A DNA stretch of 64,000 nt. It comes from Nitrosococcus watsonii C-113 (GTDB lineage: Bacteria; Pseudomonadota; Gammaproteobacteria; Nitrosococcales; Nitrosococcaceae). The notes below the pieces were generated by a model that made no database searches, was not told the DNA's origin, and was given only the letters and a program-made list of their open reading frames with translations. The translations under genes and the position numbers were made by a program. Location of the stretch: the NCBI RefSeq assembly GCF_000143085.1, contig NC_014315.1, forward strand, positions 3,006,001 to 3,070,000. Direction: 5' to 3'. Each line of letters opens with the position of its first letter. The stretch's first letter is position 1. Below are positions 2,404-27,186 of this stretch, in pieces.

Positions 2404-3339
2404 ATGAGTTTGGTTAAAATCCCATTTATAAGTATATATTATGTATCGATTTATGTGTTACTAAATCTTTCGCTTTCTGCCGGAGCGGCAACTCTAGATG
2501 AACAGATTTGCTCTAATGAGAAAATTCAGAAATTGGATCTTACTTCAGCTGAGCCGCAGCTCCTATTACGGGAGCCGCTATACGGTGTAACAGTGGATTC
2601 AGTCGATCATCTAAATTACATTGTCCGTTCATTACGATCTCTGCCGCGTATGCCTACTACCCGTATAGTATTTGATGAATTTGTTCCAGCAAAAAATTAT
2701 AAAAAGGCTGTTAACGAAATTAGTCGGGCTAGCTACGTTATGGGAGAGATTTTAGATTCTTCTGCGATGAGCCAATATAGTTGGCAAGAATATAGAGATC
2801 GGGTTATTGAGTATTTAGAAGTCCTTGGCCCAAAGGTCCATATTTGGGAGATTGGCAATGAGGTTAATGGAGAGTGGCTTGGTGATCCAAGTCACGTAGT
2901 GAAAAAAGTACAGACTGCTTATGATCTTGTTAAGAGTTATAAGGGTAAGACTGCGTTGACATTGTATTATAACGAGAATTGCTGGATGTATCCTTGGGAA
3001 GAAATGTTCCAGTGGGCGGAAAGCAAGATACCTAGTTACATGAAGCAAGGATTAGATTATGTGCTAGTTAGCTATTATGAGAGTGATTGCAATAATCTGA
3101 AGCCAGACTGGAAAAATGTCTTTGATCGCCTTGGCCAGGTATTTCCAAACTCTAAGCTTGGTTTTGGCGAAGTGGGTACCGCAATAAAATCCCAGAAAGC
3201 AGATTATCTTAGACGTTATTACACGCTTCCTATCAATCATCCTCGCTATATTGGCGGACATTTTTGGTGGTATTTCAAGCAGGATATGGTGCCGAAAAAG
3301 AAACCATTATGGAGCGTACTAAAAGAGGTAATGGAATAA
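2404..3339 (+). CDS. secreted glycoside-hydrolase-like protein (clan GH-A fold)
   Basis: A 311-residue protein with an N-terminal signal peptide (hydrophobic to about residue 28, cleavage near SAGAA). Two signatures of a GH-A TIM-barrel hydrolase are visible: IWEIGNEVNG with a candidate acid/base at E153, and FGEVGT with a candidate nucleophile at E256. Both motifs are where such enzymes carry catalytic Glu residues. A final strand contains GGHFWWYF. The substrate cannot be read from sequence. It neighbours an NGR-like polysaccharide locus and converges on a DUF2334 gene across a shared terminator, so a role in trimming or degrading that polymer in the periplasm is inferred. The start is supported by AAGG seven bases upstream of the ATG. 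The gene is strongly AT-rich like the rest of the island. Confidence 0.7.
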   Translation: MSLVKIPFISIYYVSIYVLLNLSLSAGAATLDEQICSNEKIQKLDLTSAEPQLLLREPLYGVTVDSVDHLNYIVRSLRSLPRMPTTRIVFDEFVPAKNYKKAVNEISRASYVMGEILDSSAMSQYSWQEYRDRVIEYLEVLGPKVHIWEIGNEVNGEWLGDPSHVVKKVQTAYDLVKSYKGKTALTLYYNENCWMYPWEEMFQWAESKIPSYMKQGLDYVLVSYYESDCNNLKPDWKNVFDRLGQVFPNSKLGFGEVGTAIKSQKADYLRRYYTLPINHPRYIGGHFWWYFKQDMVPKKKPLWSVLKEVME

Positions 3340-3349
3340 TATGTTTAAA

Positions 3350-3387
3350 AAATAGGGCTGAGAGTCGCCTACTTCTCAGCCCTATTT
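3350..3387. terminator. bidirectional terminator between convergent genes
   Basis: AAATAGGGCTGAGA (3350-3363) and its exact complement TCTCAGCCCTATTT (3374-3387) form a 14-bp stem. It is followed by CTTTTT on the plus strand and flanked by A/T runs on the other side. It serves the 2404-3339 gene and probably the minus-strand 3459-5447 gene. Confidence 0.9.
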
Positions 3388-3458
3388 CTTTTTGCTTAAA
3401 TGTGAATTCTTTCTAGATGAAAATTTAAGTGATTATAACTCGCACTGTATAGTCGCAC

Positions 3459-5447
3459 CTAAAGCTCACTTGCATCTACCCACTGGTAGCCTAATGCAGT
3501 AATCCCTTCCACGACAGTTTTAAAGTCGGATAATCCGGGAACATGTAAGTTTTTTTCTAGCCAGAAGGGGTGAAAAAAGAAAGATGCAAATCCATCACGC
3601 ACAGTTAAAGCATAGCTAGCATTTAATAAGATATCCTCTGCAGTGTAAACGGATTCTGGAGGCCCAAATCCAGGATATTCAATATTCCCCAGATTCTCTG
3701 GAAGAACTCTTTGTCCATAGTAATCTTCATGTATGATGTAGGGAAAGAACTGCCCAACAGCATAATCCCGGTTGGGATCACTAGGATTAAGATTTGGATT
3801 ATCAGACGTGTAATAAACTGCTCTCTGGTAAGTCGTATCAAACCTTTGTGGAAAAGCTCGATATGCAGTGGGTGATGCATGGTAATGGGGGGTTTCCCAG
3901 GCAAAGGGAGTATAACCAAGGCTTTGAAGCTCAGCCAATCCAGCATCTAGTCTTGCTAACACCCAAGCTGTGGAATCCTCAGCTACTGGCTCCTGATTGA
4001 CGATGTCCCAAAACTCAAAATCATCCCCGCTAACTCCAGAATCAGCATTAAGTCGATCATCGTATTGGTGGGTATATCCATGCATCAGTATTTTCCCCCC
4101 TCGGGTGAGAGCATGGTCCAAGGATTGAAGCAAATCAGTGGCATCTGCCAAATGAATTTCTTCAGGAACACCACCCGTGTAAAATCCTAGTGGATCACGA
4201 TAAAATGGGATAACCGCAATAGAAAAAGGTACTTCCTTTGAGGATAAATAATTGGATAATTTTTTCATGCTCTGTTGTGTTACTTTTGCAGCAACATCCT
4301 CAAGACGGATCAAAGCCTTATGTATCTCAGGTACGTTTGTGCCCAAGATGTCGTGTAATAAATCAGCGAATACTAGGTAGCGATCACGCGGATTAATATA
4401 GGAGAATGGAATATCCGCGATGTACCAAAAATTTCCCGAACGTACGACATAGGGGATTTCGGCTTCCGAAACACTATTTTTTATCGTGATCAGTCGCTGC
4501 GCCTTTGCTGGATCCGTAATTTGGGTAACGCCTACGTCTGGATCAGCAAAGACATTATTCATTGCTGCATCATAGAAGTAGTATTTGATGAACGATTGAT
4601 TTTTATAAAGCACAGTATCATAGAAGCCTGGATCAGGGTTGGCGGGTGTGGGAGGAACATTCAGCCCGGCCAGACTATTGAATGCAAAGCCATAGGTGGC
4701 TTCAAAATTAGCAGCGGGATCCCATGCCAGCTGCCATAGGTTGTATTTAAACCAAACGACTGTTTTATTAGTATTCAATACATCCTGCAAGAAGTCAGTG
4801 GGCAATTGGTTATCATAATATGAGCCCAAATAAAAGATATAATCATAGTTTTCTAGATTCCCAGTCTGATAGTGATCAATAGGTAATAGATCTACTGTAG
4901 ATGAAAAATGACCCAATAGATTGCGTAACATGATTCCATAAGCTGGGCCAAGCCTTCCATATTCAGCCGAAGGTTGATCATAGGTAACTAAAACTCGATT
5001 TGACGTTGTATCTGAAGTAATCCGTGCTAAAGTTCCTGTGTTTTCCAAAGCATTGGTTGTTGCTGAAAGCACTCTGGATTTGACTGCCACTGAAAATAAT
5101 TTCTTCTTTCCCTTTGTTTTAACATTCTTAATTTTGTCTATCAGCTTCTCCTTCTTCTTCTGTATTCGTTCTTTCGCTCTTTTACTGAGTTTTAGGTTTT
5201 TTTTACCTCCTAGCGTGGTTATGGAGGCAGGATCTCCTGGTTCTATGATTGTATTAACACTGGTTTTCCTAGGTGATTTAATCGGTGCTTTTCCTAGGTT
5301 ACTAGCAGCACTGGCAGTTGTTATCCAGATCAGTGAAAATATGAAAAAAAATATTAATAGGTTAATGCAAATTAAATGAAACCGTTTCACTTTAGGCTCC
5401 TTAATAGCAGGTGTAAATAGTTGGTATACTCGTTTTATTTTTATCAA
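3459..5447 (-). CDS. DUF2334 polysaccharide-deacetylase-like protein
   Basis: A 662-residue secreted or membrane-anchored protein. Hydrophobic signal/anchor at about residues 24-47, then a Lys-rich linker (75-115). Next comes a domain with VLVTYD and YIFYLGSYY (about 145-330), resembling the class I amidotransferase-like half often found before DUF2334. A C-terminal deacetylase-like barrel starts near residue 380 (RLEDVAAKV, FSIAVIPFY, MHGYTHQYD). The ED and HGYTH pieces match the metal-binding motifs of carbohydrate esterase/DUF2334 proteins. It follows the DUF4434 gene by 44 bases on the same strand, so the two are probably an operon. Inferred role: periplasmic N-deacetylation of an amino-sugar polymer made by the NfrB-like enzyme nearby; the exact substrate is unknown. 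Confidence 0.8.
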   Translation of the reverse strand: MIKIKRVYQLFTPAIKEPKVKRFHLICINLLIFFFIFSLIWITTASAASNLGKAPIKSPRKTSVNTIIEPGDPASITTLGGKKNLKLSKRAKERIQKKKEKLIDKIKNVKTKGKKKLFSVAVKSRVLSATTNALENTGTLARITSDTTSNRVLVTYDQPSAEYGRLGPAYGIMLRNLLGHFSSTVDLLPIDHYQTGNLENYDYIFYLGSYYDNQLPTDFLQDVLNTNKTVVWFKYNLWQLAWDPAANFEATYGFAFNSLAGLNVPPTPANPDPGFYDTVLYKNQSFIKYYFYDAAMNNVFADPDVGVTQITDPAKAQRLITIKNSVSEAEIPYVVRSGNFWYIADIPFSYINPRDRYLVFADLLHDILGTNVPEIHKALIRLEDVAAKVTQQSMKKLSNYLSSKEVPFSIAVIPFYRDPLGFYTGGVPEEIHLADATDLLQSLDHALTRGGKILMHGYTHQYDDRLNADSGVSGDDFEFWDIVNQEPVAEDSTAWVLARLDAGLAELQSLGYTPFAWETPHYHASPTAYRAFPQRFDTTYQRAVYYTSDNPNLNPSDPNRDYAVGQFFPYIIHEDYYGQRVLPENLGNIEYPGFGPPESVYTAEDILLNASYALTVRDGFASFFFHPFWLEKNLHVPGLSDFKTVVEGITALGYQWVDASEL

Positions 5448-5491
5448 AACTTATTGACAAGCTAGTCGAGTATTTACTAGCATATTTGCTT

Positions 5492-6529
5492 CTATTTCTT
5501 TGTATTATTTACATAGTTGATGTATTTTTCAAATAACCTCCTTGCTTTGGTGCCAGTCTCTGGAATCATATAATCAGGTATGCTGAAAGCAATAATATTT
5601 TGGCTGTACCTAGAAGCAATCTCTAGCTGTCCTTCGATACGGTTAAAATCAGCGGGAACTGCCTGAAATGGAGAAAAATTATTATCTGGATCTGATATTG
5701 TCTGGAATATTTCGGTAATTATATATAGTTCACGAGAACTGATTTCAGTGGCTTCTTGTATAGCTTCAAGATAAAGTGGTAGGCTAGAAAAATCTAATTT
5801 TTTAGCCCCAATACCGTCTTGGAAGAGAACCATATCAATGGATGTTGGTTGTAATAGAGATTCCCAAAATTCTTTAAAAGTATCAGGATCAATAGCAGCA
5901 TTAGTAAAACATGATATTGCTACTTTTTTATTAGGTGTAATCGTATGCAGGTATGTGCTTAATCTATCTAAATAATTAATGATTAACTGTCGTGCCATTT
6001 GGCCACGCCAGTTAATATCATCGATTTCTTCTGTAATATACCACCCTCCAAAGGATGTATGCTTAACTAGAAGTGGTGTAAGTTCTTCCGCCACAGACGA
6101 AGATCTTGACAGGAGCTTCCTAAGATAAACTTCAACCCATGCTGGATCATGGTCAATATTATCCCAATATCCTGAATCATGGGCAAGGCCCACGAGCACC
6201 TTAATGCCGGCAGCATCGGCTAATTCCATAATAGTATTTAATGGAGAGTTTTTAATTTCTTGGTAATTGTCTATTGCATAAAATGGAACATCATCATACA
6301 AAGACCATTGTATAATAAGTTTAGAGATTTCTAATTTCTTAAGGTTAGAAATTAACTCAGCCCACTCTTGGATCTGCCAATCTTCCTGGTTAATTCTAAG
6401 TTGCAAGAAAGTGCCGGTAAATTTAATCGGTAGATTTTTTTCTGCAATAACAAAAGGGGATGTACCTAGTAGCAGAGCAAAAAACAAAGCCACAAGTGTG
6501 GAATTCTTCATGAATTTTAGCCTATTCAA
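5492..6529 (-). CDS. DUF4434 glycosidase-like secreted protein (YbcH-like)
   Basis: A 345-residue protein with a signal peptide (residues 1-29, cleaved near FVIA). The core begins ITGTF-like (FTGTFLQLRINQ) and includes LIIQWSLYDD, VLVGLAHDSGYWD and WYITEEIDD, which fit the DUF4434 TIM-barrel family. From memory, the E. coli nfrA-nfrB locus has a DUF4434 neighbour (ybcH), so finding one here supports reading the region as an NGR-type locus. The candidate catalytic pair would be among E in YITEEIDD and E in YIITEIFQ. Transcribed with the DUF2334 gene. It may act on the exported glycan in the periplasm (inference). Confidence 0.75.
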   Translation of the reverse strand: MNRLKFMKNSTLVALFFALLLGTSPFVIAEKNLPIKFTGTFLQLRINQEDWQIQEWAELISNLKKLEISKLIIQWSLYDDVPFYAIDNYQEIKNSPLNTIMELADAAGIKVLVGLAHDSGYWDNIDHDPAWVEVYLRKLLSRSSSVAEELTPLLVKHTSFGGWYITEEIDDINWRGQMARQLIINYLDRLSTYLHTITPNKKVAISCFTNAAIDPDTFKEFWESLLQPTSIDMVLFQDGIGAKKLDFSSLPLYLEAIQEATEISSRELYIITEIFQTISDPDNNFSPFQAVPADFNRIEGQLEIASRYSQNIIAFSIPDYMIPETGTKARRLFEKYINYVNNTKK

Positions 6530-6554
6530 TATAAAAAATTACCTGAAATCATTG

Positions 6555-6694
6555 CCATTTTATATTACATCGCACGATATATCCGCACTCTTTTTTAAAA
6601 AATCTCCATCGCTTCAACCTTGCTTCCGCTATCTCTTTCGTACAAAGAGACCACCGCTTCTCTCATGTCTAAAGAATAAGTACACAAACATATA
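6555..6694 (-). mobile_element. internally deleted IS630 remnant
   Basis: On the minus strand, TYSLDMREAVVSLYERDSG-SKVEA matches the N-terminus of the IS630 orfA at 8188-8499. It jumps directly to MEIF-stop-KRVRI, matching that ORF's C-terminus (AMGIVKKRARV). About 200 bases of helix-turn-helix sequence are missing between them. Only about 140 bases survive; not functional. Confidence 0.7.
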
Positions 6695-7649
6695 TGCCTA
6701 TTTTTGTCACCTTCACTGACGACAAGACCCTCATGTCGCCATTAAGCGTAGCCTAAGCTTATCACAGCCTTAAAACCAGCAATCACTACCTCTGTAATGA
6801 CCCAGTAATCTCCTGCCCAGATGATACATCGAGGAGAAGATACCGATGATCAACATAATAGACCATCACATCTGGCGGTTGCTAGGCTGAGCATATCCCG
6901 CGCAGTGCCAAGTCCCAGAATGCAGAGACCACCTCTGGAGCAAGCGCTGATTAGTCAGCTCGGATGCTGGGGGCAAGTGCGAGAGTTACTCCTGCTTCGC
7001 TCGGACAATAAGTTAGTATTCATCAGTTACCGCCTTGGTGTGCAGCTACGTCCTGAGAAATGGCCGAGCGGCTGATACGTGCCCTTAAGGAGCAATCCGC
7101 CCGCCTGCCGATGTTGCTTTAGAAACTCAGTACGCGTGATGGGTGGCTTCTATACTGATAGAGGCCGCGCAATCGGGTTCAGGTAAAAGCAAAGATGGAA
7201 AACTAACGCGTGATCCTGAAACGGGTTGGCACGTTAAGAACGATAGTCGAGACAACAAGAAGTCCACCTATGGTTTTTCTTTATTATACGAATATCGAGG
7301 AAGATGGTTTTATTCACGATCAAAGCGCGACACCGGACCATATTCATGGTTCTCAGGGGCGAGACACCGCGCTACTCGGAGATGAAACGGCACTCTACCG
7401 CTTACAGTTCAAAGAAAACCAGAGATAAATTGGCGCAGCTGGGCATTAACGATCAAGTCCAACACAAAGGCTACCGAACTAGCCTCCTATCGGAGGCAGA
7501 TCGCATTCGTAACCAGGAATCGCGGTAAAGCGAGCTAGTGGTGAACGACTTTTTGCTACCTGCAAATGGCATTATAGTCTCGTCCGAACTCGGTTCATGT
7601 TATGGGTCTTGCCAAAAATGCGATGGTTTACGCACTATAGACATTTGCG

Positions 7650-8187
7650 TTAAGAATAAGACAATATGAGTTGATCGATGGTTGTTTCTGGTAGCATGGA
7701 TGGTCGTTTTCGTTTCATGCTTCCAAATGTTTGCTCAATAGGATTGAAGTCAGGTGAGTATGGCGGCAATGGGATCAGATAATGATAATCTGGCGCAACG
7801 ATCTCTTGAATACGCATATGATTGTGGAATGAAGCATTATCCATGACGATGAGGGTGGGCTCATGCAATGCCTTCATCCAATGATCTTTGATCCATGTTT
7901 GGACCAATGCCGCTGTGCATGAACCTTCAAAGAGCATCGGTGCCAGCCCCATTCTTTCTTGCGCCCTGATGCATGGTGCCGCTGCGCCATCATTAAATGG
8001 GTTCTACGCCGTCTCTTGCCGGAGACAAGGCTGAGTATCTTTTGGCCTTTGGCAACCCCCGGCATCACGGTTGTAATGCGCATCAAAGCCAGTTTCATCC
8101 ATATAAATTAGGTTCTTAAACCCAAACATACGGTGTTCAGCATGGAGCTTTTCCAAATACGCCTGCCTTTTCCTATGGCATCGCTCG
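7650..8187 (-). pseudogene. IS630 transposase orfB (DDE half), frameshifted
   Basis: The catalytic domain can be read in pieces: YLEKLHAEHRMFG and YMDETGFDA (first Asp), then QKILSLVSGKRRRRTHLMMAQ in a second frame. Then MGLAPMLFEGSCTAAL, VMDNASFHNH (second Asp) and YSPDFNPIEQTFG (Glu) in a third, ending LILSYS. All three catalytic acids are present, but at least two frame changes beyond the orfA/orfB junction indicate decay. Confidence 0.8.
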
Positions 8188-8499
8188 CTATACCCGCGCT
8201 CTTTTTTTTACGATGCCCATCGCCTTTAAAGCGCGGCTAATGGAACTTGTATGTACACCAAACACTTCTGCACGTTCATGAAGAAACATATCAGGGTTAT
8301 CCTCAACATGTTTCTTAAGCGCAGCCTTATCAAGCTTACGATTGCGAAAACCATGTCTCTTAGGCTGCCAATCATCAGCATTCAGCCAACGATAAAGGGT
8401 ATTGCGGGAAAAACCAAAAAGGCGGGATGCCTCAACCTTGCTGCCACCATTATTTATGGACGAGATTGCGGCTTCTCTCAGATCAAGCGAATAAGTCAT
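8188..8499 (-). CDS. IS630 transposase orfA (helix-turn-helix half)
   Basis: 103 residues: YSLDLREAAISSINNGGSKV, FSRNTLYRWL and VHTSSISRALKAMG are the two helix-turn-helix units that bind the inverted repeats. The frame ends after a run of eight A (KKRARV-stop). The DDE half lies in another frame beyond the run, which fits the slippage-type expression known in IS630 elements. Nearly the same protein is encoded by the truncated copy at 15.9 kb. Confidence 0.85.
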   Translation of the reverse strand: MTYSLDLREAAISSINNGGSKVEASRLFGFSRNTLYRWLNADDWQPKRHGFRNRKLDKAALKKHVEDNPDMFLHERAEVFGVHTSSISRALKAMGIVKKRARV

Positions 8500-8794
8500 G
8501 AAAAATGATAGCAGGTAACCTTATTACCACAAATCGCTATAGCGGTCATGGCTGCCAATATTCGCAAAGGGACTAAGTTTTTGATGCATTATGGCTTGCC
8601 AGATTCAGGACTTAGACTTACAGAGGATAAATGTGGCTACACTTCCTAAACATCGCCTAAATCGTGTATAAACCCAATAAATCAGTACTGAATCGTTAGC
8701 TATGCCTTTCGATTTTCGCAAAAATACTGAAATTCAATAGTATCAGCCAAAATCAATGGTTATGCTGAGGTCTCATAAAATCCTTAACTTGCTT

Positions 8795-10441
8795 TTAAGT
8801 TTGTTTTTGAAGGAATTTATTTAGTTGAATGTGATCAATTAAGCCTTTATCCATAAATATCTCGCCTAACAAGCGGTATTGACTTCGTTGTGAATTAAGA
8901 GCTTCCTCAAGTTGTTTCACTGTAATTATTCGGTGTTCTAGAAGAAGATCACCTAGTTTTCTTCTAAATGCTTTTAATTCATCCTCTGAGGGAAAGTTGT
9001 GCGCGGTTTTATCCCAAGGAATAAGGATACCTGTACGAAGATAATTTATATAAAGTCGGATAGCCCTTGACGTTGCAAAAAAATTAATTATATTTCCCAA
9101 AATCATGCGGGGAAAAGATAAAAATGCTTGTTTTAAATTATAAAATTTATAGACGCAATAGGCTCTATGAAATATCCGCAATACAAAAAAAATGCCGTTG
9201 ATTATAACGAGATACCATAACCAAGTCCCCTGTTCTAATAGAGGAGGATAGTGATAGGCATTTGGATTTAACCAGATTACAAACCAAACCGTAGCCACTA
9301 ATAGTACAACTAAATAACCCATAAAATTAGCCAAGTTTGTTATTAGTGCACGTCGATCTCGGTATAGCATATATTGAGTTGCAAAATCCCATTTCCAACC
9401 AAGGTTTTCCCATCCTTGTAAGGCTATACCGACCACCCAACGGGATTTCTGACGTACTGCAGTCGAGAATGTTGAAGGGAAATATTCCCGTATACAGATC
9501 AGCTCCTTTTTCTTATATTCTTTTAATTTACGCCTAAAAATCGTGTGTTTAAAGGTTGTTCTAGTAATTGTAAATCCAACAAAAACCTGCTTAAGCCCGT
9601 GTTTTTTTAACCGAAAACCAAAATCGTAATCCTCTGTCAGGGAGTTAGTGCTAAACAATATATTTCGGTTACTAGCGCAAACAATTTCGAATGCTCGTCT
9701 ACTAAATGCAGCTCCTACCCCAGCAGCTGGTATGCTACGACTAAGAACTTCTCTCACAATGAGATCCTTGTAATGCAATTGAGAAAATTCATCAATGTAA
9801 TGGCCTGCAGTAAATTGATGCCATTTTGTTTCTAGAGATAGGACGGGGAGTTGAACCATATCCATTCTAGGCATCAAATAATTAAATAACTTATAGCAGA
9901 GAGGGTGTATTACATCTTCACAGTCTTGCATTACAAAAATCTGAAACTGAATATTATTTTCTTGCTCAAAAATTTTTATTCCTTGATAAATCCAGTTTAG
10001 ACAGTCCGCTTTATTACTTGGTCCATCATGTGGACAAATAGTACGTTGAACTCGCGGGTGATTCTCCCTTGCTAACTCTACTCCCTTTTGCGTATCGGGA
10101 TCATTAGGATATGTGCCTACAAAGATATAAAAATTTTCATAATTCAGCGCCTGCGCGGTATTTTCTAGCATTTTTTGAATTACGGATGATTCGTCCCACG
10201 CGGGAATCATGACTGCGATAGGTTTCTCAGGAGTATTGAGTAATTTATCTTCGGTTAATGGTTGTATTTTGGGTATTATAAAAACCCTGCGATAAAAGGC
10301 CCGAGTCCAATAGCATAGATCGATAAATAGATCATCAATCCCGCTTATAAAGAAAATTATGCAAATGACTGTAAGTAATACCTGCATAGCAACGAAGACG
10401 TAAGCAAATAAATCGATGGAGCTTAATATAGATGTATCCAT
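8795..10441 (-). CDS. NfrB-like membrane glycosyltransferase with C-terminal MshEN domain
   Basis: A 548-residue inner-membrane family-2 glycosyltransferase. An N-terminal membrane helix is followed by the GT-A domain: VMIPAWDESS near residue 80, a metal-binding QDCEDV near 172, TEDYDFGFRL near 270 and RQKSRWVVGIALQGW near 335 (RxxRW processivity motif). Further membrane helices follow at about 365-455. The last 60 residues contain two MshEN repeats, RKLGDLLLEHRI..LEEALNSQ and RLLGEIFMDKGL..LNKFLQKQ, with the conserved R, LG, L and Q of the c-di-GMP-binding motif. This architecture is that of E. coli NfrB, which polymerises the N4-receptor glycan. It lies 60 bases after wecB on the same strand, with nfrA-like divergent upstream. 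It is shorter than E. coli NfrB (about 745 residues), lacking extra N-terminal sequence. Confidence 0.88.
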   Translation of the reverse strand: MDTSILSSIDLFAYVFVAMQVLLTVICIIFFISGIDDLFIDLCYWTRAFYRRVFIIPKIQPLTEDKLLNTPEKPIAVMIPAWDESSVIQKMLENTAQALNYENFYIFVGTYPNDPDTQKGVELARENHPRVQRTICPHDGPSNKADCLNWIYQGIKIFEQENNIQFQIFVMQDCEDVIHPLCYKLFNYLMPRMDMVQLPVLSLETKWHQFTAGHYIDEFSQLHYKDLIVREVLSRSIPAAGVGAAFSRRAFEIVCASNRNILFSTNSLTEDYDFGFRLKKHGLKQVFVGFTITRTTFKHTIFRRKLKEYKKKELICIREYFPSTFSTAVRQKSRWVVGIALQGWENLGWKWDFATQYMLYRDRRALITNLANFMGYLVVLLVATVWFVIWLNPNAYHYPPLLEQGTWLWYLVIINGIFFVLRIFHRAYCVYKFYNLKQAFLSFPRMILGNIINFFATSRAIRLYINYLRTGILIPWDKTAHNFPSEDELKAFRRKLGDLLLEHRIITVKQLEEALNSQRSQYRLLGEIFMDKGLIDHIQLNKFLQKQT

Positions 10442-10500
10442 TATTTTTAGATGTTTTATCTGTTTATGATTTTTATAATCTTATTCTCTATAGTGTATTT

Positions 10501-11724
10501 TTACGTAGTACTTTCTGGCCAATGGTTTATTGATTCATAATTAATTCCTGGCCTAGTTGTTGAGAATTCTTGTGCTGATTCTAGCAGTGGATGGGCACCG
10601 CGCCACCATCGACAGATAGCTTCAGCTATTCTAGTTGAGGCTAGGCCATCGCCATAAGGGTTGTCTCCTTGTGACATTTTTTTATAAGCTTCGAAATTAG
10701 AGAGTAATTCTGTTGCTGAGGTAACGATGTCTACTGTTGATGTACCAATAACCTTGGCTAATCCTCTATCAAATGCTTCTGGCCTTTCAGTTAATTTACG
10801 TAGCACAAAAAGTGGTTTATTAAGTGAAGGCGCCTCCTCCTGAATACCGCCAGAATCGGTTAGAATAATATAAGATCGCTGCATGAGGTTGATAAAGGTA
10901 AGGTAATCAATTGGTTCAATAAGGTGGACCCGTTCCACGCCTTCCAAACTGCTCATCACTACTTTTCTGACATTTGGATTCATGTGTACAGGATAGACTA
11001 CGAGAAGGTCATGGAAACGATCCGTTAAATCTCTTAACGCAAGGCAGATGTTTTTTAATTCTTCTCCCCAAGATTCACGACGATGTGAGGTTACTAACAT
11101 AACCCGATAGTTATCAAAAGGTATTTTCGCTAGGGGAGATGAATCAATATTAAATGGAGTATTAAGAAATATTTTAAGAGAATCAACTACCGTATTCCCT
11201 GTAATTACAATTTTACTGCGGGGAACGGCCTCTTTTATAAGATTTTTAGCCGCGAGGGAGGTCGGGGCAAAGTGGATATCTGCTAAAACTGATGTTAGCT
11301 TCCTATTTGCCTCTTCTGGGAAGGGGTTATAAATATCATAACTTCGAAGGCCGGCTTCTATATGAGCTATTGGAACCTTACGATAGAATGCCGCGAGTGA
11401 TGAGGCAAAAGCTGTAGTAGTATCACCTTGGACTAGAAGGAGATCAGGGTGCAGTTTTTGCAAAGTAACTTCTATTACTTCTATAACCTGTGCAGTTAAG
11501 TTGCTAAGTGTCTGATCAGGCTGCATCACGTTTAAATCGATATCGGGGGTGATCTGAAAGAGAGACAGAACTTGATCAAGCATCTGTCGATGTTGAGCTG
11601 TCGATATTACGATTGTATTTATTTCATCACTCCGCTCACGAAGTGCGGATATAACCGGAGCTATCTTAATTCCCTCAGGCCTCGTGCCCATTATAGCTAC
11701 TGCATTGCACTTTCTCATGCTCAT
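10501..11724 (-). CDS. wecB: UDP-N-acetylglucosamine 2-epimerase (non-hydrolysing)
   Basis: A 407-residue WecB-type epimerase interconverting UDP-GlcNAc and UDP-ManNAc in the cytoplasm. Seen: MGTRPEGIKIAPVI at the N-terminus, IAHIEAGLRSYD, FPEEANRKLTSVLADIHFAPT, TSHRRESWGE and LTDSGGIQEEAP with PEAFDRG near the C-terminus, all family signatures including the active-site His and Glu residues. AGGA lies 8 bases before ATG 11724. It is followed after 60 bases by the NfrB-like gene. In E. coli the same activity (NfrC/WecB) is needed for the NGR glycan, so this copy probably supplies UDP-ManNAc to NfrB. Confidence 0.93.
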   Translation of the reverse strand: MSMRKCNAVAIMGTRPEGIKIAPVISALRERSDEINTIVISTAQHRQMLDQVLSLFQITPDIDLNVMQPDQTLSNLTAQVIEVIEVTLQKLHPDLLLVQGDTTTAFASSLAAFYRKVPIAHIEAGLRSYDIYNPFPEEANRKLTSVLADIHFAPTSLAAKNLIKEAVPRSKIVITGNTVVDSLKIFLNTPFNIDSSPLAKIPFDNYRVMLVTSHRRESWGEELKNICLALRDLTDRFHDLLVVYPVHMNPNVRKVVMSSLEGVERVHLIEPIDYLTFINLMQRSYIILTDSGGIQEEAPSLNKPLFVLRKLTERPEAFDRGLAKVIGTSTVDIVTSATELLSNFEAYKKMSQGDNPYGDGLASTRIAEAICRWWRGAHPLLESAQEFSTTRPGINYESINHWPESTT

Positions 11725-12181
11725 GTCGGTATTCCTGTTTGTTATACTCTTATATAATTATAATTGTGAATCAAAAATTTATATCAATTTGATCCTGAAA
11801 AAAATATCAATAATATTAGATTTACTACAGCCTATCTTCTATTGTAATATAGTATATATTTTTTTGACATAGAGGCTGTTCCTACCCATCGAATTCCAGC
11901 TGAGGGTATTCTTCTTGCCTAACTAATGCCTGGCACCGAACGCAGTAAATCAGGCGTGAAATAATATAAAAACTACCCTCTTAAATATTTTGAAGCAGTT
12001 TTAATGGCTTTTGAGTGATAAAGTTGCGTGCGCACTTTGTCGCTGTGAAAACAATTTTATCACTCAAAAAAACTTGCTACTTAAGCTCTCATTAGCGTAT
12101 TTACTTTTGGTCATTTTCTCTACTCTTTAGATGCAAAGGACTAAGCATTTTTTAGAGAGGTTTTAGTAAAAGATAACACAA
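11725..12181. promoter_or_regulatory. divergent intergenic region between wecB and nfrA-like genes
   Basis: A 457-base AT-rich spacer that must hold the promoters of both divergent units. Its only clear structure is the inverted repeat TTTTGAGTGATAAA (12009-12022) and TTTATCACTCAAAA (12056-12069), a perfect 14-bp match around a 33-base spacer, ending 112 bases before the nfrA-like start. It could be a paired operator or an attenuator stem; its right arm continues into A-rich rather than T-rich sequence on the plus strand. Confidence 0.5.
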
Positions 12182-15100
12182 ATGAATAAGTTAAAGAATT
12201 TCAATAAAACAGTACTAACCTTGCTGCTTCTCATTACTTTTTCCAGATATGTAAGCGGAGATATCACTAATACTCATATAGATAATCAGATAAGAGTTGT
12301 TCAATCAGAAATAAATGAAAGTTGGATAGAAGAACTAGTGCGAAAGTTTCGTTCCTATCCACGCTTGGACCGTGCCTATCGGCTTGTAGAATCTGGACGC
12401 TTCCAAGAAGCTAAAGCCCTACTGGAAGATCTATTGCAAATAAACCCACAGGATATCGAAACTAGGATTGCCTATATAGAATTACTTTATCACCTCCACG
12501 ATTTCCACAATTGTATTCAACAGGCAAACATATTATTACAAAAAAGATCGGGGCTAGTTGTTGGATATCTTTATCGGGGTATGGCAAATCAAAAGATAGA
12601 TCGCATAGAAGACGCGATTGCAGATTTCTATAAGGTCGCAGATAATCCTTCAGCTACAGAAGATCAACGCTATTACGCACTATTTAGTTTGGTTGATACG
12701 TTTATGCAGAAAAGGGAATATAGTAAGGCTATAGAAATACTTGACCGTTTTTCCTCTTCATCTAAAGATTTCCGTTATCATTTTACTAGAGCTATGGCGT
12801 TGGAAGCTTTAGGAAAGATTCCATCCGCGGCTAATACGTATATAGATGCATTAGGCTCCGCGCAGAATAATACTGAAAAACGTAACGCATTGCTAGGTAT
12901 TGGAGAAATTGAAAAGGAGAGAAAAAACTGGAAAGAAGCTCAAAGCAGATTTAAATCTGTTCTTGAATTAGAACCTAACCACTTACGGAGCATTAAGGTG
13001 CTAGCAGAGATTGCTTATGCTCAAAAAAAATATTCAAAAGCAGAACAATGGATACGTAAGGTTATTATTGTTGATCCAAGTATTTCAAACCGCGAGTTTC
13101 TTGCAAACCTACTTATCCTACAAAGAGACTATTTTAGTGCTATTAAGGAACTTAAAAAAATTATTTCTGATATTGATTCCCCTGATGAACTATATGCAAT
13201 CCATGTAACTATTGGCTTCGCTTATTTTAATATGGGTTTGTTTAAGAATGCCATCCAGGAATTCGAAAAAGCCATAGGGATAAAGAAAGATTTTGATACG
13301 TGGATGGTTCTATCGCAGGCTCAAGAAAAGGAAAAAAGCTACGATGCAGCCATACAGACACTGAAAGAGGCATTAAAAATATGGCCTAAGCCAGAAATAT
13401 ACCTTAGATTAGCTTTCTTGTACTTGAAACAGGGGAATCAAACTAAGGCTTTAAATAACTTTAAACAAGCGGAAGAAAAGGCTCCTATAGACATTCAAGA
13501 ACGTGCTATTAGGCAACAGGTACATATTTATATTAAGCGTGGCCTCTATAATGAGGCAAAAAGGGGATTAACAAAATTAAACCATATTAATAGAATCGAT
13601 CTTAATGATGCTGAATTATTTGCAATTATTGCAGATGCAAATATGAACACTAATAATATAAAGGAAGCAATTCGGTTATATGAGAAAAGCTTATCTCTCA
13701 GATACCATCCTGAAATAGCTCGTCGCCTTGCTCTATCTCATATACAAGTTAAGAATTTAAGGGCAGCCGAAAAAATTTATCTAAGCTTATTAGATAAATC
13801 CAGTGTATCTGAAGAAAAGAAGCGTGATATTTTAAATAGTTTAGCATATTTATATGAACAATCAGGGAGGAATAAAGAGGCCATAGCTGCCTTTTATAAA
13901 GCTATTGAAAAAGGAGAGAATAGCGCTGCTATTCACCAGAGTTTAGCATTTGCTTTAGAAAAAGAAGAAAAGAAGCAGGAATCTCTGCAGCAATTTTTGC
14001 TGGCATCTAAACTAGAACAAACACCAAGATCTTTAATTTATATTAGCCAAGCTTACCAAAAACTAGGAAAACCTGGGCTGGCTATTTATTACTTGCGCCA
14101 AGCCCTGGATAATGAGCAAGCCCTTACTAGTGAAGAAAAAATAGATATACTTAATGAGCTTGGCTACTTGTATGCTGAGGCTAAAGAGTATCAAAAAGTT
14201 GAGGAAGTTTGGCAACGTTCGTTGAAGTTAAATTACAATTCAGAGATAGCAGTTCGTCTTGGAAGAATTCAGCGCTTATTAGGAAAAAGTGACAAAGCTA
14301 TAACAATGCTTAAACACATTGATGAGTCTGCTTTGACAGAAAAGTTAAAGGTACTTCGCCTAGAGGAGTTGGCAAAAACTGAAGCAAGTAGACAGAATTG
14401 GCTTGCTGCTATTCACTTCCTGGAACAAGCTAATAAGATCCAAGAATCAGCTGAGGGATTTTATCAATTGGGATTCTATCATCGCCAATTGGGGCATCTG
14501 CAAGAAGAAATCACCTATCTTGAGAAGGCGCTAAACTTAGCGCCATCTAACAACCAGTATGCTCTTGAATTGGCCTACGTATATAAAGCGTCAGGAAAAA
14601 AACAAGAAGCTATTGCTCTGTTGAACAAGGTTGCAGAAGAACAGCTTGATAATTCGACTATTGCTAAAGATCTCGCCTATACACAAATGCAGTTAGGAAA
14701 TAATGAAAGAGCCACTCACTGGTTTAAGAGAGCAATTGATATTCAATCACTTTATCCAGCCGATTCTATTCAAGAGCAGAATAAGATAGACTTGGAGATC
14801 TACCATATGCGCAAAGACATTCAACGCATAAACAATCATCTAGATTTTGATTTCTATCAGATGTATCGATCTAACACGGGAAATCTAGATAATTTCCAAG
14901 GAACAGTAGTTGGGGGTGTTGTTCCCTCGCAAGGTGGTGTTCAAGTTTCATTTCAACCTCCAAAGATAGGTTTTCTTGATGAACGTATTTTCCAAGTCTT
15001 TACTCGCTTCCTATGGAGCAATAAGCCTGATTCACTAGAAATAGAAGGAAGCTCGCTTCAGGGAGGAGTTGGCTTTCGCTATAAGCCGTTTAAAAAACAA

Positions 15101-15553
15101 AATTTATTCGTTGGTGCAGAAAGACTTTTTAAGATTGGAGATAATGCCCAAAATAATTGGCTTCTTCGTGCAACCTATGGCTGGACTTCAGGCACTGATT
15201 GGGCGCCAAATAAGGACTTTTGGAATTATTCGCTGGTATATGGAGACCTAGGTTATTTTACAGAACGATCTGGGACTTTAGCTTATTATGGGGAAGCAAG
15301 GCAGGGCATTTCATTTAAGATTGCAGATAACTTTGTTTTGACTCCTCATATAATAGTAGACGGGCGCTACCAAAGTACAGATTCCAGCAATAGCTCTTAT
15401 TTGGAAGGGGGCGGAGGCATTTCACTTAGATATTTATTTAATGACAAGCGCTATGAGTCATATCGTTCTCGTGCTGAACTCTTCGTACAGTATAGAGCTG
15501 ATATAGTTAATGCTGCGAATGGGTTAGTTATTACGGGTATTATACAGTTCTAA
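12182..15553 (+). CDS. NfrA-like TPR outer-membrane polysaccharide secretion protein
   Basis: A 1123-residue protein with a signal peptide (residues 1-27, LLLLITFSRYVSGD). About 850 residues of tetratricopeptide repeats follow (for example YRLVESGRFQEAKALLEDLL and NSLAYLYEQSGRNKEAIAAF). The C-terminal region (about 890-1123) has beta-strand-rich sequence: GGVQVSFQPPKIG, FTRFLWSN and NLFVGAERLF. That region matches the NfrA C-terminal domain, thought to be the outer-membrane part. In E. coli NfrA is the outer-membrane partner of NfrB and the phage N4 receptor. Here it diverges from wecB-nfrB, giving a complete core set. Low G+C, like the surrounding island. The role in exporting a ManNAc-type polymer is inferred by homology. 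Confidence 0.88.
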   Translation: MNKLKNFNKTVLTLLLLITFSRYVSGDITNTHIDNQIRVVQSEINESWIEELVRKFRSYPRLDRAYRLVESGRFQEAKALLEDLLQINPQDIETRIAYIELLYHLHDFHNCIQQANILLQKRSGLVVGYLYRGMANQKIDRIEDAIADFYKVADNPSATEDQRYYALFSLVDTFMQKREYSKAIEILDRFSSSSKDFRYHFTRAMALEALGKIPSAANTYIDALGSAQNNTEKRNALLGIGEIEKERKNWKEAQSRFKSVLELEPNHLRSIKVLAEIAYAQKKYSKAEQWIRKVIIVDPSISNREFLANLLILQRDYFSAIKELKKIISDIDSPDELYAIHVTIGFAYFNMGLFKNAIQEFEKAIGIKKDFDTWMVLSQAQEKEKSYDAAIQTLKEALKIWPKPEIYLRLAFLYLKQGNQTKALNNFKQAEEKAPIDIQERAIRQQVHIYIKRGLYNEAKRGLTKLNHINRIDLNDAELFAIIADANMNTNNIKEAIRLYEKSLSLRYHPEIARRLALSHIQVKNLRAAEKIYLSLLDKSSVSEEKKRDILNSLAYLYEQSGRNKEAIAAFYKAIEKGENSAAIHQSLAFALEKEEKKQESLQQFLLASKLEQTPRSLIYISQAYQKLGKPGLAIYYLRQALDNEQALTSEEKIDILNELGYLYAEAKEYQKVEEVWQRSLKLNYNSEIAVRLGRIQRLLGKSDKAITMLKHIDESALTEKLKVLRLEELAKTEASRQNWLAAIHFLEQANKIQESAEGFYQLGFYHRQLGHLQEEITYLEKALNLAPSNNQYALELAYVYKASGKKQEAIALLNKVAEEQLDNSTIAKDLAYTQMQLGNNERATHWFKRAIDIQSLYPADSIQEQNKIDLEIYHMRKDIQRINNHLDFDFYQMYRSNTGNLDNFQGTVVGGVVPSQGGVQVSFQPPKIGFLDERIFQVFTRFLWSNKPDSLEIEGSSLQGGVGFRYKPFKKQNLFVGAERLFKIGDNAQNNWLLRATYGWTSGTDWAPNKDFWNYSLVYGDLGYFTERSGTLAYYGEARQGISFKIADNFVLTPHIIVDGRYQSTDSSNSSYLEGGGGISLRYLFNDKRYESYRSRAELFVQYRADIVNAANGLVITGIIQF

Positions 15554-15888: not shown

Positions 15889-16668
15889 TCATTTTAGTTT
15901 TTCTCGTAACACTCTTTATCGTTGGCTAAATGCTGATGCTCTGGCTCCCAAGCAGGCTGGTTTTCGTCATCGTAAGATTGATAAGGCTGCTCTGAAGAAG
16001 CACACTGAGGAGCATCCCGATATGTTTTTGCATGAACGCGCGGAAGTTTTTGGCGTTCACACGAGTTCTATAAGCCGTGCGCTCAAAATGTTAAAGATCG
16101 TAAAAAAAAAGAGCGGTGCAATATGAGAAGGCAAGAATTTCTTGAGAAACTCGCTGCCGAGCATAGGATGTTCGGCCTCAAGAAGCTGATTTACATGGAT
16201 GAAACGGGCTTTGATGCCCCTTGTGACCGTGATGCAGGATGGGTGCAAAAAGGACACAAAATCCTTGGCCTTATCACAGGCAAACGCAAGCGCCGGACTA
16301 ATCTTATCATGGCACAGCCTCACCACCGCCAAGGGGCAGAAAAAAGAAGGGTTGGCGCCCATGCTCTTTGAAGGCTCATGCACGGCGGCGCTTGTTGAAA
16401 CATGGATTGAGCGATTGAGCAGTGCTTGATGAAAGAGCTGCATGAGCCCACCCTCATCGTCATGGACAATGCTTCCTTTCACAATCATAAGCGTATCCAG
16501 AAGATTGTGGCTTCAGATTACCACATGGTCATACCGCTACCGCCATATTCACCGGACTTCAATCCCATAGAAAATTCATTTGGCGGCATGAAAAAGAGGC
16601 GACAATCATTGCCACAAAACACGTCAATCGATCAACTTATATTGTCTTATTCTTAACACAAATAACTA
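15889..16668 (+). mobile_element. truncated IS630 copy 2
   Basis: The same element family as at 7.6-8.5 kb, in the opposite orientation. orfA lacks its first helix-turn-helix and begins at FSRNTLYRWLNAD (about 15893), running to KKKSGAI-stop at 16126 after a run of nine A. orfB begins near MRRQEFLEKL (16123) and carries YMDETGFDA, MAQ, LAPMLFEGSCTAALVETWIE, VMDNASFHNH and NPIENSFGGMK in three frames, so it is broken. The right end ...CACAAATAACTA is followed by TA at 16669; the left inverted repeat is gone. Confidence 0.85.
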
Positions 16669-16969
16669 TAAACGCTCCGAACGCGTGGCCATACCCGTGC
16701 GATTAGGCATTATTTCCGTCACATGAGATTCACAAAAAAGCGCGCCCTCTTGCTCAGCTGCGCATTTTTTCAAAAACCATGGGAAAGAGAACCTTGCGTA
16801 CTTTGAAAATAGATTTGAGAAACATTCTCATCGGTCGTATAGTTGGGTGCAGGGCGGTATAAAGCCGAAGGTCAGCAGGGTTGGAGACAGGGGGGATGTG
16901 CGGGAATGGTTATCAAAGGAGTCAGTAATTTCAGGAAATGCTATAGACAGCGGTGACCGCGCAATCTCG
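16669..16969. other. intergenic stretch, nothing recognised
   Basis: 300 bases between the truncated IS630 and the 3' end of the LysM-ATPase gene. No ORF, repeat or terminator with a U-tract is visible. Confidence 0.4.
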
Positions 16970-18472
16970 CTAAGGGGTTTTTACACCTTTATTTGTTTCT
17001 TCAACGTTTAGCGGTAATTGAATAACCTGACCTACCACTATTTCATCTGGATTCCGGATATCTGGGTTTGCCTGCAATACTGCGGCAAATAACTTCCAGT
17101 TCACAGCGCCATATTCCCGCTGAATAATTTTCTCCAGCGTATCGGCTTTCTCTACAATTACCCATTTGCTATCCTCTGCTTCTTTAGGATTACTACCCGA
17201 GGCGTGTTCAGAGGAAGCAGTTTCCTTTTGCTCCTGGACACTCTCCAACAACGGTAGCGTAACCTGGGAATTGACCACGGCTCTCGGCGGGGAATAAAGT
17301 TTGGCATCTTTTTCAACTAAGCTTTGTTCAAAAACTTCTGCCGAAGGTTTCGGCAACTGCTCATCCGCTATTTCCGGCAAATTGCTCTGCGACTTCAAAA
17401 GGGTCCTCTTTTGTAATTCTTTACTATCATTAGCTTGCCTCTTCGCGGGAACAGTTAAAACGGTAGTATTAGTAGCTTCCTGCTGGCTGGCCTGTTTTAC
17501 TACCTCCCTCCCCCCTACCTGCTGAAAGGACAACCACGCAGCAATGCTGGCGGCAGCAAAACCCATGGTTACGGCAGTAAGCCAGTAAAATCTCTTACCT
17601 AAGAATGTTTCTGGGGCTAGATTTTCGTCCTTGCCTAATTCTGCCTTATTGCCCAACTGGATACTCTCCTGGCAATCATTCGCCGCTTCTGCAACTATTT
17701 TTTTATCAATTATTTTCCTCTGCAGAGCATATCCGATCAGTAACGCGTTATCGCACACGGTATTGATTCTTCGTGGAACACCTTGTGAATATCGCCAAAT
17801 CAACGTTAGCGCCCCAGGGCTAAATACTTTCTTGGCTGAGCAGTCGGCTAATTTGCAGCGATGGTCTATATAAGCGTAGGTTTCTTCCTCCGTCAACGCT
17901 TTGAGATATCTTCTAACGCTTATCCGCTGCGCTAACTGCTTTAGCGCGGGCTGCACTAATTTCGTATCAAGCTCCTGCTGCCCCGATAAGATAACCTGGA
18001 TCAGCTTCCGCTTTTGAGTCTCCAAATTCTGTAATAGCCGGAGATTTTCCAACGACTTCCGGCTAAGTCGTTGGGCTTCGTCAACCAATAACACGACATT
18101 ACCGCCGGCTTTTAGCTGGTGGACAGCATAAGCTTGGAGCATATTAATAGCTTTCCAGCGCGGTACTAAAATTTCAGGCTCGGCCAACTCTAAGTCAACC
18201 AGCGCCATCATCAATAGCTCGTCGAACGGTAAATCCGGGTAAAAAAGAAAAGCTCTTTTGGTATTTTCATCCAAACGGTTTAACAGCGCCTTGAGCAACG
18301 TCGTCTTACCCGTTCCTGCTTCCCCTATCAGGCTGATAATGCCTTTACGGTGGTGGACACCATAAAGTAGCGCCGCGAATGCCTCTCGGTAACAAGGATT
18401 CAGGTAAAGAAACTCAGGATCAGCAGTATTACCGAACGGCGCTTCGGAAAAGCCATAAAAATTATAATACAC
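16970..18472 (-). CDS. ExeA-like AAA ATPase with C-terminal LysM domain (EPS cluster)
   Basis: A 500-residue protein of the general-secretion ExeA/XrtA-associated ATPase type. It opens with MYYNFYGFSEAPFGNTADP, typical of this family. Walker A is GEAGTGKTT (about residue 49), Walker B is VVLLVDEAQ (about 127) and an arginine-rich sensor region LAQRISVRRYL follows near 190. A single membrane helix (about 293-313) precedes a low-complexity linker and a periplasmic LysM domain (about 435-490: VEKADTLEKII, NWKLFAAVLQANP), expected to bind peptidoglycan. It ends the minus-strand polysaccharide cluster, 29 bases after the chain-length gene. Likely an envelope-anchored ATPase that helps position or assemble the export machinery. 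A remnant of its 3' end is duplicated at 1249-1425. Confidence 0.85.
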   Translation of the reverse strand: MYYNFYGFSEAPFGNTADPEFLYLNPCYREAFAALLYGVHHRKGIISLIGEAGTGKTTLLKALLNRLDENTKRAFLFYPDLPFDELLMMALVDLELAEPEILVPRWKAINMLQAYAVHQLKAGGNVVLLVDEAQRLSRKSLENLRLLQNLETQKRKLIQVILSGQQELDTKLVQPALKQLAQRISVRRYLKALTEEETYAYIDHRCKLADCSAKKVFSPGALTLIWRYSQGVPRRINTVCDNALLIGYALQRKIIDKKIVAEAANDCQESIQLGNKAELGKDENLAPETFLGKRFYWLTAVTMGFAAASIAAWLSFQQVGGREVVKQASQQEATNTTVLTVPAKRQANDSKELQKRTLLKSQSNLPEIADEQLPKPSAEVFEQSLVEKDAKLYSPPRAVVNSQVTLPLLESVQEQKETASSEHASGSNPKEAEDSKWVIVEKADTLEKIIQREYGAVNWKLFAAVLQANPDIRNPDEIVVGQVIQLPLNVEETNKGVKTP

Positions 18473-18501
18473 CTGCTGCAGCTATTTTACGTTCAACCCG
18501 A

Positions 18502-19980
18502 TCAATTTCGTTCAGGAACCGATGCTAGCACCGGTAACCCAATAAATTCCTCCACATCACTTTCTCTCTCCAGCTTGTCGTCCACGTACTGCCACAGGAA
18601 AGCCAGGGCCAGTCCTCCAATGCTTCCTACTAGTATAGACAAAACAATATTAAGCAATAACTTCGGGCTGACAGGGTTAAGCGGTGGTTTTGCTGGATCA
18701 AGCAGGCTCACGTTGCTAATTTTCTCTGCATTCATTGCACTAGAGATTCGAGATTCTTCTAAACGCGTAAGATAAAGCTGGTAGTTTTGCCTATCCGTCA
18801 TCAACTTACGCTGGAGATTGCTAAATTCTATCCTTACCCAATTGAGATCGCTAAGCCTTTTTTTATATTCCTTCAAGTGCGCCAGTTGACTTATCCGGCT
18901 GGCCTTAAGCCCCCTCAGGCTAACTTCAGCCTGCGATAGCTCTTCTAGAAGACTCTGGTAAACTGGGTTGACGCCACTTCGATTCCTGCTATGTTGTCGG
19001 TGCCCCTGCTCGGCGAGTTTTCCCATCACGATTCGGATTTGTTCCCTAATATTCTGAATCACGCGGCTTTCCTCATTGTACTTGGCGAGCAACTCCTTTT
19101 CCTTTATTTCCAGTTCTATTAATTTTGCCTCAAGCCTATTGGTAAGAGGCGGGCTATTGTCAAACTCCTCATAAAGGCTAATTGTCCTGGGTGCTCGAGC
19201 AAGTTGACGTCGCAATTCAGTAATACGTTTTTCCGTATCCGCCTCCCCGGTCAGCGTTTGATGCAGCTCTGACTCTAGTTTCACAATCTGCTGGAGCAAC
19301 AAATTCTGTTCCGTCTCCGGCGCACTGACTTTATATTGATTCATCAGGGACTGGAGCCTGGCTTCTGCCTGCTTCAACCTCTCACCTAAAATTTCCGATT
19401 GCGTTTGATAAAATTCAGAGGTCTCTGAATTTAGGTGCATGTCTAAATGCCGCTCAAAATACAAATCAACTAACGTGTTAACCAGCTTTGCAGCCAATAT
19501 CGGATTTTCATTCCTGAAGCTCACGTTGATGACATTGGATTGCGGGACTTTTTCCACCTTAAGGTCCTTATTCTTGACTCTTTTGACTACCTCTCTGGCG
19601 ATAGCTTCTTCCTGTCCGTGAGCGTTCTCTGTCTTTTTCAATTCTGGATAGATCTGTGCTGGCCCCAACGCGTCCACCACCTTTTCAATTAAGTACTGAC
19701 TCTTCAGTATTTCAATTTCGGAATTAATTTGTTCTTCCCTGTTCGGCACAAAGACAGTGCTGCGCTGTTCATTGATTGGTACTGCTGGAGTATAAAAATT
19801 CTCTCGACCAATATTGACTAGCAGTTTAGCTTCTGCCTCGTACTGGGGCTTTGCTATAATGGATAGAAGGATTCCTAGACCTACACTCGCAATAAAGGAA
19901 ATTAAAATTTGGAATTTCCGTTTAAAAACGACCTGAATAAAATCCCGTAGCGATATATTAGACGCTATTGCGCTATTCAT
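18502..19980 (-). CDS. Wzz/GumC-family polysaccharide chain-length determinant
   Basis: A 492-residue inner-membrane co-polymerase. First membrane helix at about 31-53, followed by the Wzz signature (PQYEAEAKLLVNIGRE). A long periplasmic coiled-coil domain spans about 170-430 (heptad-rich ILGERLKQAEARLQSLMNQY). Then a Pro-rich PAKPPLNPVSPKLLLNI motif precedes the second helix (about 448-470). It lacks a C-terminal kinase domain; the kinase-like protein is encoded separately at 32604-33347. It sets polymer length with the Wzy-like protein. A 360-base gap separates it from the polymerase gene upstream, so it may have its own promoter. Confidence 0.9.
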   Translation of the reverse strand: MNSAIASNISLRDFIQVVFKRKFQILISFIASVGLGILLSIIAKPQYEAEAKLLVNIGRENFYTPAVPINEQRSTVFVPNREEQINSEIEILKSQYLIEKVVDALGPAQIYPELKKTENAHGQEEAIAREVVKRVKNKDLKVEKVPQSNVINVSFRNENPILAAKLVNTLVDLYFERHLDMHLNSETSEFYQTQSEILGERLKQAEARLQSLMNQYKVSAPETEQNLLLQQIVKLESELHQTLTGEADTEKRITELRRQLARAPRTISLYEEFDNSPPLTNRLEAKLIELEIKEKELLAKYNEESRVIQNIREQIRIVMGKLAEQGHRQHSRNRSGVNPVYQSLLEELSQAEVSLRGLKASRISQLAHLKEYKKRLSDLNWVRIEFSNLQRKLMTDRQNYQLYLTRLEESRISSAMNAEKISNVSLLDPAKPPLNPVSPKLLLNIVLSILVGSIGGLALAFLWQYVDDKLERESDVEEFIGLPVLASVPERN

Positions 19981-21569: not shown

Positions 21570-21582
21570 AAGACCCTTGCAT

Positions 21583-22335: not shown

Positions 22336-22336
22336 T

Positions 22337-23887: not shown

Positions 23888-23906
23888 AATGCATTCCCCT
23901 CGCCGT

Positions 23907-25449: not shown

Positions 25450-25475
25450 CGGCTTCCCCCCTTCCCTCCTGCCAT

Positions 25476-27143: not shown

Positions 27144-27186
27144 TTCTCTTGCTTCTTCCCCAGCTATGTTTCTTTCCAATTGATTA

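Follow-up and report, generated by a model that had tools for sequence, protein, structure and literature searches.

The cluster of six genes described here, at positions 2404-15553 of a 64,000-base stretch of the Nitrosococcus watsonii C-113 genome (the window; bases 3,006,001-3,070,000 of a contig of 3,328,570 bases, in a genome of three contigs), is a real, lineage-specific variant of the known Nfr exopolysaccharide (EPS) system, and a preliminary description of the locus was right in outline. The reading that we favor, and to which we give somewhat better than even chances, is that the cluster is a synthase-dependent system of the type that makes the phage N4 receptor glycan (NGR) of E. 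coli, that it belongs to a distinct lineage marked by a DUF2334 protein, and that it makes a polymer of the N-acetylmannosamine (ManNAc) type under control of cyclic di-GMP (c-di-GMP), the chain being de-N-acetylated and trimmed during export. What we computed are the genes present, their family matches, their co-occurrence within one lineage, resemblances of fold and the conservation of residues; the identity of the sugar, deacetylation, c-di-GMP gating, trimming and enzyme activities are what we infer from them. The locus is laid out as follows:

2404-3339, plus strand: 311-residue protein, predicted TIM-barrel hydrolase resembling glycoside hydrolase clan A (GH-A), N-terminus hydrophobic (model and conserved motifs)
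3459-5447, minus strand: DUF2334 protein with an N-terminal hydrophobic helix, an alpha/beta domain (residues ~150-345) and a domain resembling carbohydrate esterase family 4 (CE4; residues ~375-662) (profile match, model)
5492-6529, minus strand: DUF4434 protein, homologue of YbcH, N-terminus signal-like by eye (profile match)
7636-8541, minus strand: IS630-like element (insertion sequence, IS), transposase over several frames (family match, DNA comparison)
8795-10441, minus strand: NfrB-like polysaccharide synthase of glycosyltransferase family 2 (GT2), 548 residues, C-terminal MshEN c-di-GMP motif (profile match)
10501-11724, minus strand: WecB/NfrC, non-hydrolysing UDP-N-acetylglucosamine (UDP-GlcNAc) 2-epimerase (profile match)
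11725-12181, no strand: divergent wecB/nfrA intergenic region with an 18-nucleotide inverted repeat (12009-12026/12052-12069)
12182-15553, plus strand: NfrA-like outer-membrane exporter with a signal-like N-terminus (by eye), tetratricopeptide repeats (TPRs) and an NfrA_C domain (profile match)
~15889-16670, plus strand (from complementarity): second IS630-like copy in inverted orientation, 74-77% complementary to the first

All six reading frames are open, without internal stops, and five match a family. The sixth, which had been named a secreted GH-A hydrolase, matches no Pfam or NCBIfam family at E ≤ 0.01 and is GH-A-like by its model and motifs. Export signals were judged by eye. The NfrB-like protein scores 634 bits against PRK15489 (cut-off 537) and 52.1 bits against NF053729, the model of the MshE-type c-di-GMP motif (cut-off 38). 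Its DxD, TED and QxxRW motifs are present (D173/E175/D176, T269-E270-D271 and Q331..R334-W335) and invariant in 14/14 aligned rows, as are G497 and G526 of the motif predicted to bind c-di-GMP. WecB matches TIGR00236 at 457 bits (cut-off 210). The exporter combines TPRs with PF13283 NfrA_C (110.4 bits, cut-off 25), and its putative identity as NfrA rests on this domain together with the gene neighbourhood. Two models of other TPR proteins, MamA (163 bits, cut-off 200) and PrsT (151 bits, cut-off 312), outscore the E. coli-type NfrA model on it (112.5 bits), and the chaperone model SctY passes its own cut-off (85 bits, cut-off 70); we attribute these scores to the repeats. The preliminary description had allowed that the TPR protein or the GT2 might belong to an unrelated Pga or Bcs system. 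The search for such a relationship was negative, with the NfrB-type cut-off passed and NfrA_C present: BcsC (46 bits, cut-off 858) and PgaA (26 bits, cut-off 366) were rejected for the TPR protein, and the Bcs and Pga scores of the GT2 lie far under their cut-offs.

NfrA, NfrB, WecB and YbcH together are a known system. As far as the excerpts of two 2021 papers go (PMC8669469, PMC8669472), NfrB is a c-di-GMP-dependent glycosyltransferase whose effect depends on WecB and tracks the supply of UDP-ManNAc. That nfrB and wecB lie together where a species has no other wecB was likewise published in 2021, along with the ManNAc argument (PMC8669469), so the nfrB-wecB(-ybcH) linkage is not new. The published rule fails to explain linkage in the window because this genome holds a second wecB-family gene outside it (G000:C1:1954353-1955384; 306 bits, cut-off 210). 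NGR was named in 2021, and the accessible part of PMC8669472 gives its structure as unsolved and calls its role unclear. The suggestion that the combination with DUF2334 may have gone undescribed agrees with our searches: we found no description of DUF2334 with nfr in the open-access papers searched (most subscription journals lie outside them), of which a single one names DUF2334. The adjacency of nfrB and wecB has been in print since 2021.

Like E. coli nfrBA-ybcH with its wecB (the NGR/N4 receptor system), the window locus has an NfrB-type GT2 with MshEN, an NfrA-type exporter, WecB and a DUF4434/YbcH protein. It differs in that wecB lies inside the locus, there are a DUF2334 and a GH-A-like protein in addition, nfrA is divergent from wecB-nfrB, NfrB has 548 residues compared with ~745 in E. 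coli, and both NfrB (PRK11234, 608.4 bits, cut-off 1170) and NfrA (PRK09782, 112.5 bits, cut-off 1223) score under the E. coli-type equivalog cut-offs. Polymer-modification genes beside nfr also occur in the Simplicispira and Achromobacter clusters, the latter having nfrA, nfrB and wecB together; in the portions of PMC8669469 and PMC8669472 at hand these are acetyltransferase-type genes (with BcsB as well in Achromobacter), whereas the window has a predicted N-deacetylase.

The gene set is not a chance collection, because the same set recurs in other genomes; the co-occurrence of NfrB, WecB, DUF4434 and DUF2334 proposed for a neighbourhood survey was found in their loci. Our pattern scan returned at least 574 NfrB relatives, and the best 80 were kept for locus counts, a choice that makes the set lean to close relatives. 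Among these 80 loci, WecB was found in 71, DUF2334 in 11 and a relative of the 311-residue protein in 3, all three of them DUF2334-positive; these counts were the same in the first search and with iterated profiles, which raised DUF4434 from 26 to 52 and NfrA from 60 to 76, although the iterated NfrA profile may also take in other TPR proteins. Of the 11 loci with DUF2334, 10 have wecB directly ahead of nfrB, and five loci (L045-L048 and L064) share the order DUF2334, wecB, nfrB, nfrA, DUF4434 on a single strand. Separately, WecB and NfrB lie in one open frame of 940 residues at L051:7267-10086, where a fusion or an assembly error is possible; in its close relative L054 they are two overlapping frames.

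A quick NfrB tree of 82 rows comprised 13 DUF2334-positive rows (L057 being scored from another contig of its own genome) and 59 negative ones, 72 scored in all, with 10 undecided through short flanks. Eleven positive rows, the window included, fell into one clade (SH-aLRT 99, with some long branches), and the DUF2334 label required 3 changes on the tree against a shuffled mean of 12.2, none of 500 shuffles being as low. We also counted 110 genomes from the family of N. communis Nm44 (NfrB at E ≤ 1e-60, long DUF2334 at E ≤ 1e-10): seven have NfrB, the same seven and none of the other 103 have a long DUF2334 gene, and the two genes lie 1.3-1.7 kb apart in 7/7. These seven are not independent events, since they are related species and five of them were already in the NfrB scan. 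Furthermore, the nfr-linked DUF2334 looks like a separate subfamily on the strength of profile comparison, because a profile that recovers its own 12 members matches nothing up to E 10 among 212 open reading frames of at least 150 residues at 30 other DUF2334 loci (L127-L156). The window protein alone gives two weak matches there (E 0.00085 and 0.0027).

The DUF2334 protein named in the preliminary description is confirmed as a family member (164 bits, cut-off 26). PF10096 is the one Pfam model matching it at E ≤ 0.01, the Pfam polysaccharide deacetylase model giving no match, and the model for N-acetylglucosaminyl phosphatidylglycerol deacetylase, NF053788, reaches 17 bits, far under its cut-off of 280. 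A sequence search for a solved relative returned one unrelated chain (E 0.36). An AlphaFold2 model built from 13 rows (mean pLDDT 71.3, pTM 0.72) shows a hydrophobic helix and a disordered segment ahead of two folded domains, one alpha/beta and the other a CE-type barrel. The top Foldseek match is human NDST1 (E 2.6e-9, with a whole-length TM of just 0.31), followed by a polysaccharide deacetylase, ArnD and CE4 enzymes; VIA-align matches the model to a putative polysaccharide deacetylase with Z 18.7 (226 residues, root-mean-square deviation 2.9) and to PelA with Z 13.5 (347 residues, 6.0). Agd3 is absent among the 50 matches listed in each search. R381, E383, D384, H456 and H460 are invariant in 13/13 rows, and we propose from the motif that D384, H456 and H460 are Asp-His-His metal ligands. 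The modelled protein thus has a predicted deacetylase (beta/alpha) fold resembling NDST1, PelA and CE4 enzymes.

There is precedent for a CE4-like deacetylase in an EPS system. It is found in Pel (PelA, CE21) and in Bacillus PelADA (CE26), and an alpha/beta domain ahead of the deacetylase domain, as in our model, is seen in NDST1, Agd3 and PelADA. Pel is a polymer of N-acetylgalactosamine, and its synthase and exporter families differ from those of Nfr. DUF2334 also differs from PelA and PelADA in sequence family and in having Glu as the residue at the base position. Listeria pssA-E and B. subtilis ydaJKLMN resemble the window locus as c-di-GMP-dependent EPS systems, the Listeria one having a BcsB-like protein and a GGDEF receptor where the window has NfrA and MshEN. 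The B. subtilis control genome was positive in the DUF2334 profile search; YdaL, or in Listeria one of the Pss proteins, may be the DUF2334 member. The composition of the Listeria chain, to go by an excerpt of PMC5422440, is beta-1,4-ManNAc with galactose. The literature consulted also included PMC4125290, PMC13274460, PMC9800504, PMC12022489, PMC13254593 and PMC10864358.

The two remaining proteins are candidates for trimming the chain. The DUF4434 protein matches its family at 182 bits (cut-off 30) and PRK09936 at 117.6 bits, under the equivalog cut-off of 344. E. coli YbcH is itself DUF4434 (235 bits), which bears out the preliminary statement that such a protein lies beside nfr in that species. 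YbcH was called a putative scaffold in 2021, its deletion having a partial effect, in the passages available from PMC8669469. In our comparison the DUF4434 protein matches a solved putative alpha-L-fucosidase, 4h41, by sequence (E 4.7e-8), and two glutamates, E168 and E273, are invariant in 18/18 rows (the window protein and 17 homologues picked from loci, E. coli YbcH included); because of this match and these glutamates, the comparison suggests that YbcH is an enzyme, perhaps a glycosidase. For the 311-residue protein the best solved relative in a sequence search has E 0.0073. Its model (4 rows, pLDDT 71.8, residues 1-58 and 284-293 unsure) resembles clan GH-A-type enzymes (galactanase, Gas2/Gel4, xylanases and GH1 beta-glucosidases; best Z 19.0), the search also listing other TIM barrels, some of which are no carbohydrate enzymes. 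E153 (in GNE) and E256 (in GFGE) are invariant in 4/4 rows, window included; from the motifs we take them to be the acid/base Glu after Asn and the nucleophile Glu, respectively. The protein is therefore predicted to be a GH-A-like TIM-barrel hydrolase. PF14323 had no match in this genome, nor in the control genomes.

Our working model is that WecB would supply UDP-ManNAc, which the NfrB-like GT2 in the membrane would polymerise while moving the chain across the inner membrane, c-di-GMP acting as the gate through MshEN. In the periplasm the exported DUF2334 protein would use a divalent metal, bound by D384, H456 and H460, to strip N-acetyl groups, the DUF4434 (YbcH-type) and GH-A-like proteins would trim or edit chains, and export would go through NfrA. 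We would expect from this a positively charged surface polymer based on ManNAc that has lost part of its N-acetyl groups. A broader possibility, which we offer tentatively, is that DUF2334-type Nfr systems both make and de-N-acetylate their own NGR to give a secreted cationic poly-(N-acetyl)mannosamine matrix, with YbcH/DUF4434 as an active glycosidase of the pathway. To our knowledge a polymer of this type is not known from nature.

Several observations weigh against the reading that we favor. The polymer is a prediction from the genes, and the composition of NGR is itself unproven. With regard to deacetylation, the Foldseek list for DUF2334 has alpha/beta and TIM enzymes of no relation among its matches at E < 0.001; aldolases, CPS1 and Golgi mannosidase II are on the list too. 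In addition, the catalytic base would be a Glu, since E383 occupies the position of Asp D319 in NDST1 in 13/13 rows; this is a real departure, and activity could be altered or absent. The candidate acid residues H521 and H626, the latter near the C-terminus, are kept in 10 of the 12 rows that reach those columns and lost in two (L061 and L054). These features, together with the presence of the CE4-fold pseudoenzymes 7bkf and 6hm9 among the fold matches, would suit a DUF2334 protein with the fold of a deacetylase that is a pseudoenzyme, binding carbohydrate or serving as a scaffold and guiding to NfrA a polymer that stays fully acetylated. We regard this as unlikely, and the invariance of the putative metal triad in all 13 rows argues against it.

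The distribution of DUF2334 and of MshEN sets further limits. In a draw of 398 genomes from the phylum, NfrB passed the cut-off in 14, the window's genome included, and DUF2334 was found at E ≤ 0.001 in none of the other 13; DUF2334 of any kind passed its cut-off in 41 of the 398. From the family, tree and phylum-draw counts, DUF2334 belongs to one Nfr lineage and is no general part of Nfr systems. A search of the 21 closest genomes found a long DUF2334 gene in 12, three of which have a further long copy away from nfr (L157, G459:C96; L158, G473:C19; L159, G460:C9); the neighbours sampled around these copies are unrelated genes, and the same genomes also hold an nfr-linked copy. As for MshEN, the window, four Nitrosomonas loci (L045, L046, L047 and L064) and L049 have an NfrB that keeps it, but NfrB stops before it in four DUF2334-positive loci (L048, L051, L054 and L063), so c-di-GMP gating is not general in the DUF2334 lineage; in L052 and L057, NfrB ends at or near a contig end.

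The second wecB-family gene means that WecB of the window is not the sole possible source of UDP-ManNAc. The synthase might use another activated N-acetylhexosamine, such as UDP-GlcNAc, with WecB serving another pathway, for instance a second EPS locus that begins at 16970; the substrate specificity of a glycosyltransferase is unreadable from sequence. We think this improbable, given that here, as in 10/11 DUF2334-positive loci, wecB stands immediately before nfrB on the same strand, that the second wecB-family gene could itself supply the other pathway, and that E. coli genetics and the argument from linkage, as published (PMC8669469, PMC8669472), favor UDP-ManNAc.

Finally, the IS630-like element at 7636-8541, which like the second copy is absent from the preliminary description and of which another genome of the genus has similar copies, sits between the nfrB and DUF4434 genes and cuts off the DUF4434-DUF2334 pair from wecB-nfrB, and it may disturb expression of the cluster. 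The three other genomes of the genus give no NfrB match, and all that they match in the DNA from ~1.2 to 20 kb is IS copies and short stretches; probably this genome acquired the locus, or its relatives lost it. One could therefore take the cluster, with two IS630-like copies in and beside it, for the decaying remains of a horizontal acquisition, of little function in this genome. We give this account little weight, as the six reading frames are all open and the catalytic motifs are kept. The idea that nfrA became divergent through an inversion between the IS630-like copies is unsupported, the copies being just 74-77% identical. In the intergenic region, 12028-12157 matches another genome of the genus at three places (69-70% identity) and has no second place in its own.

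The window also holds other loci. The adjoining second EPS locus (16970-36575) has genes for an XrtA-associated ATPase-like protein, a chain-length determinant, Wzy_C, a flippase and glycosyltransferases, as well as a LegB-like dehydratase, an export protein and tyrosine-kinase-like genes; its XrtA-type models score under their cut-offs. Large proteins with CBM96/DNRLRE domains are encoded at 38139-42146 and 34269-36575, one with a metallophosphatase domain and one with a beta-helix. Type I-F CRISPR genes lie at 57506-63548, with Cas3 across two open reading frames (one with a Cas2 domain) and a Csy1-like protein.

The finding ties DUF2334 to EPS modification, and a lineage with a dedicated predicted N-deacetylase offers a handle on the chemistry of NGR: a polymer on which the DUF2334 enzyme acts must be N-acetylated, and the product would then be traceable by its charge. 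The N4 phage and other WecB-dependent phages carry deacetylase tailspikes, in the available text of PMC8669472, which makes it plausible that deacetylation by the host affects phages. In the broader, tentative reading, self-deacetylation would alter adhesion and remove the N-acetyl groups that the deacetylase tailspikes of NGR phages target. As the locus is common to Nitrosomonas and this genome, it may also bear on the biofilms of ammonia oxidisers.

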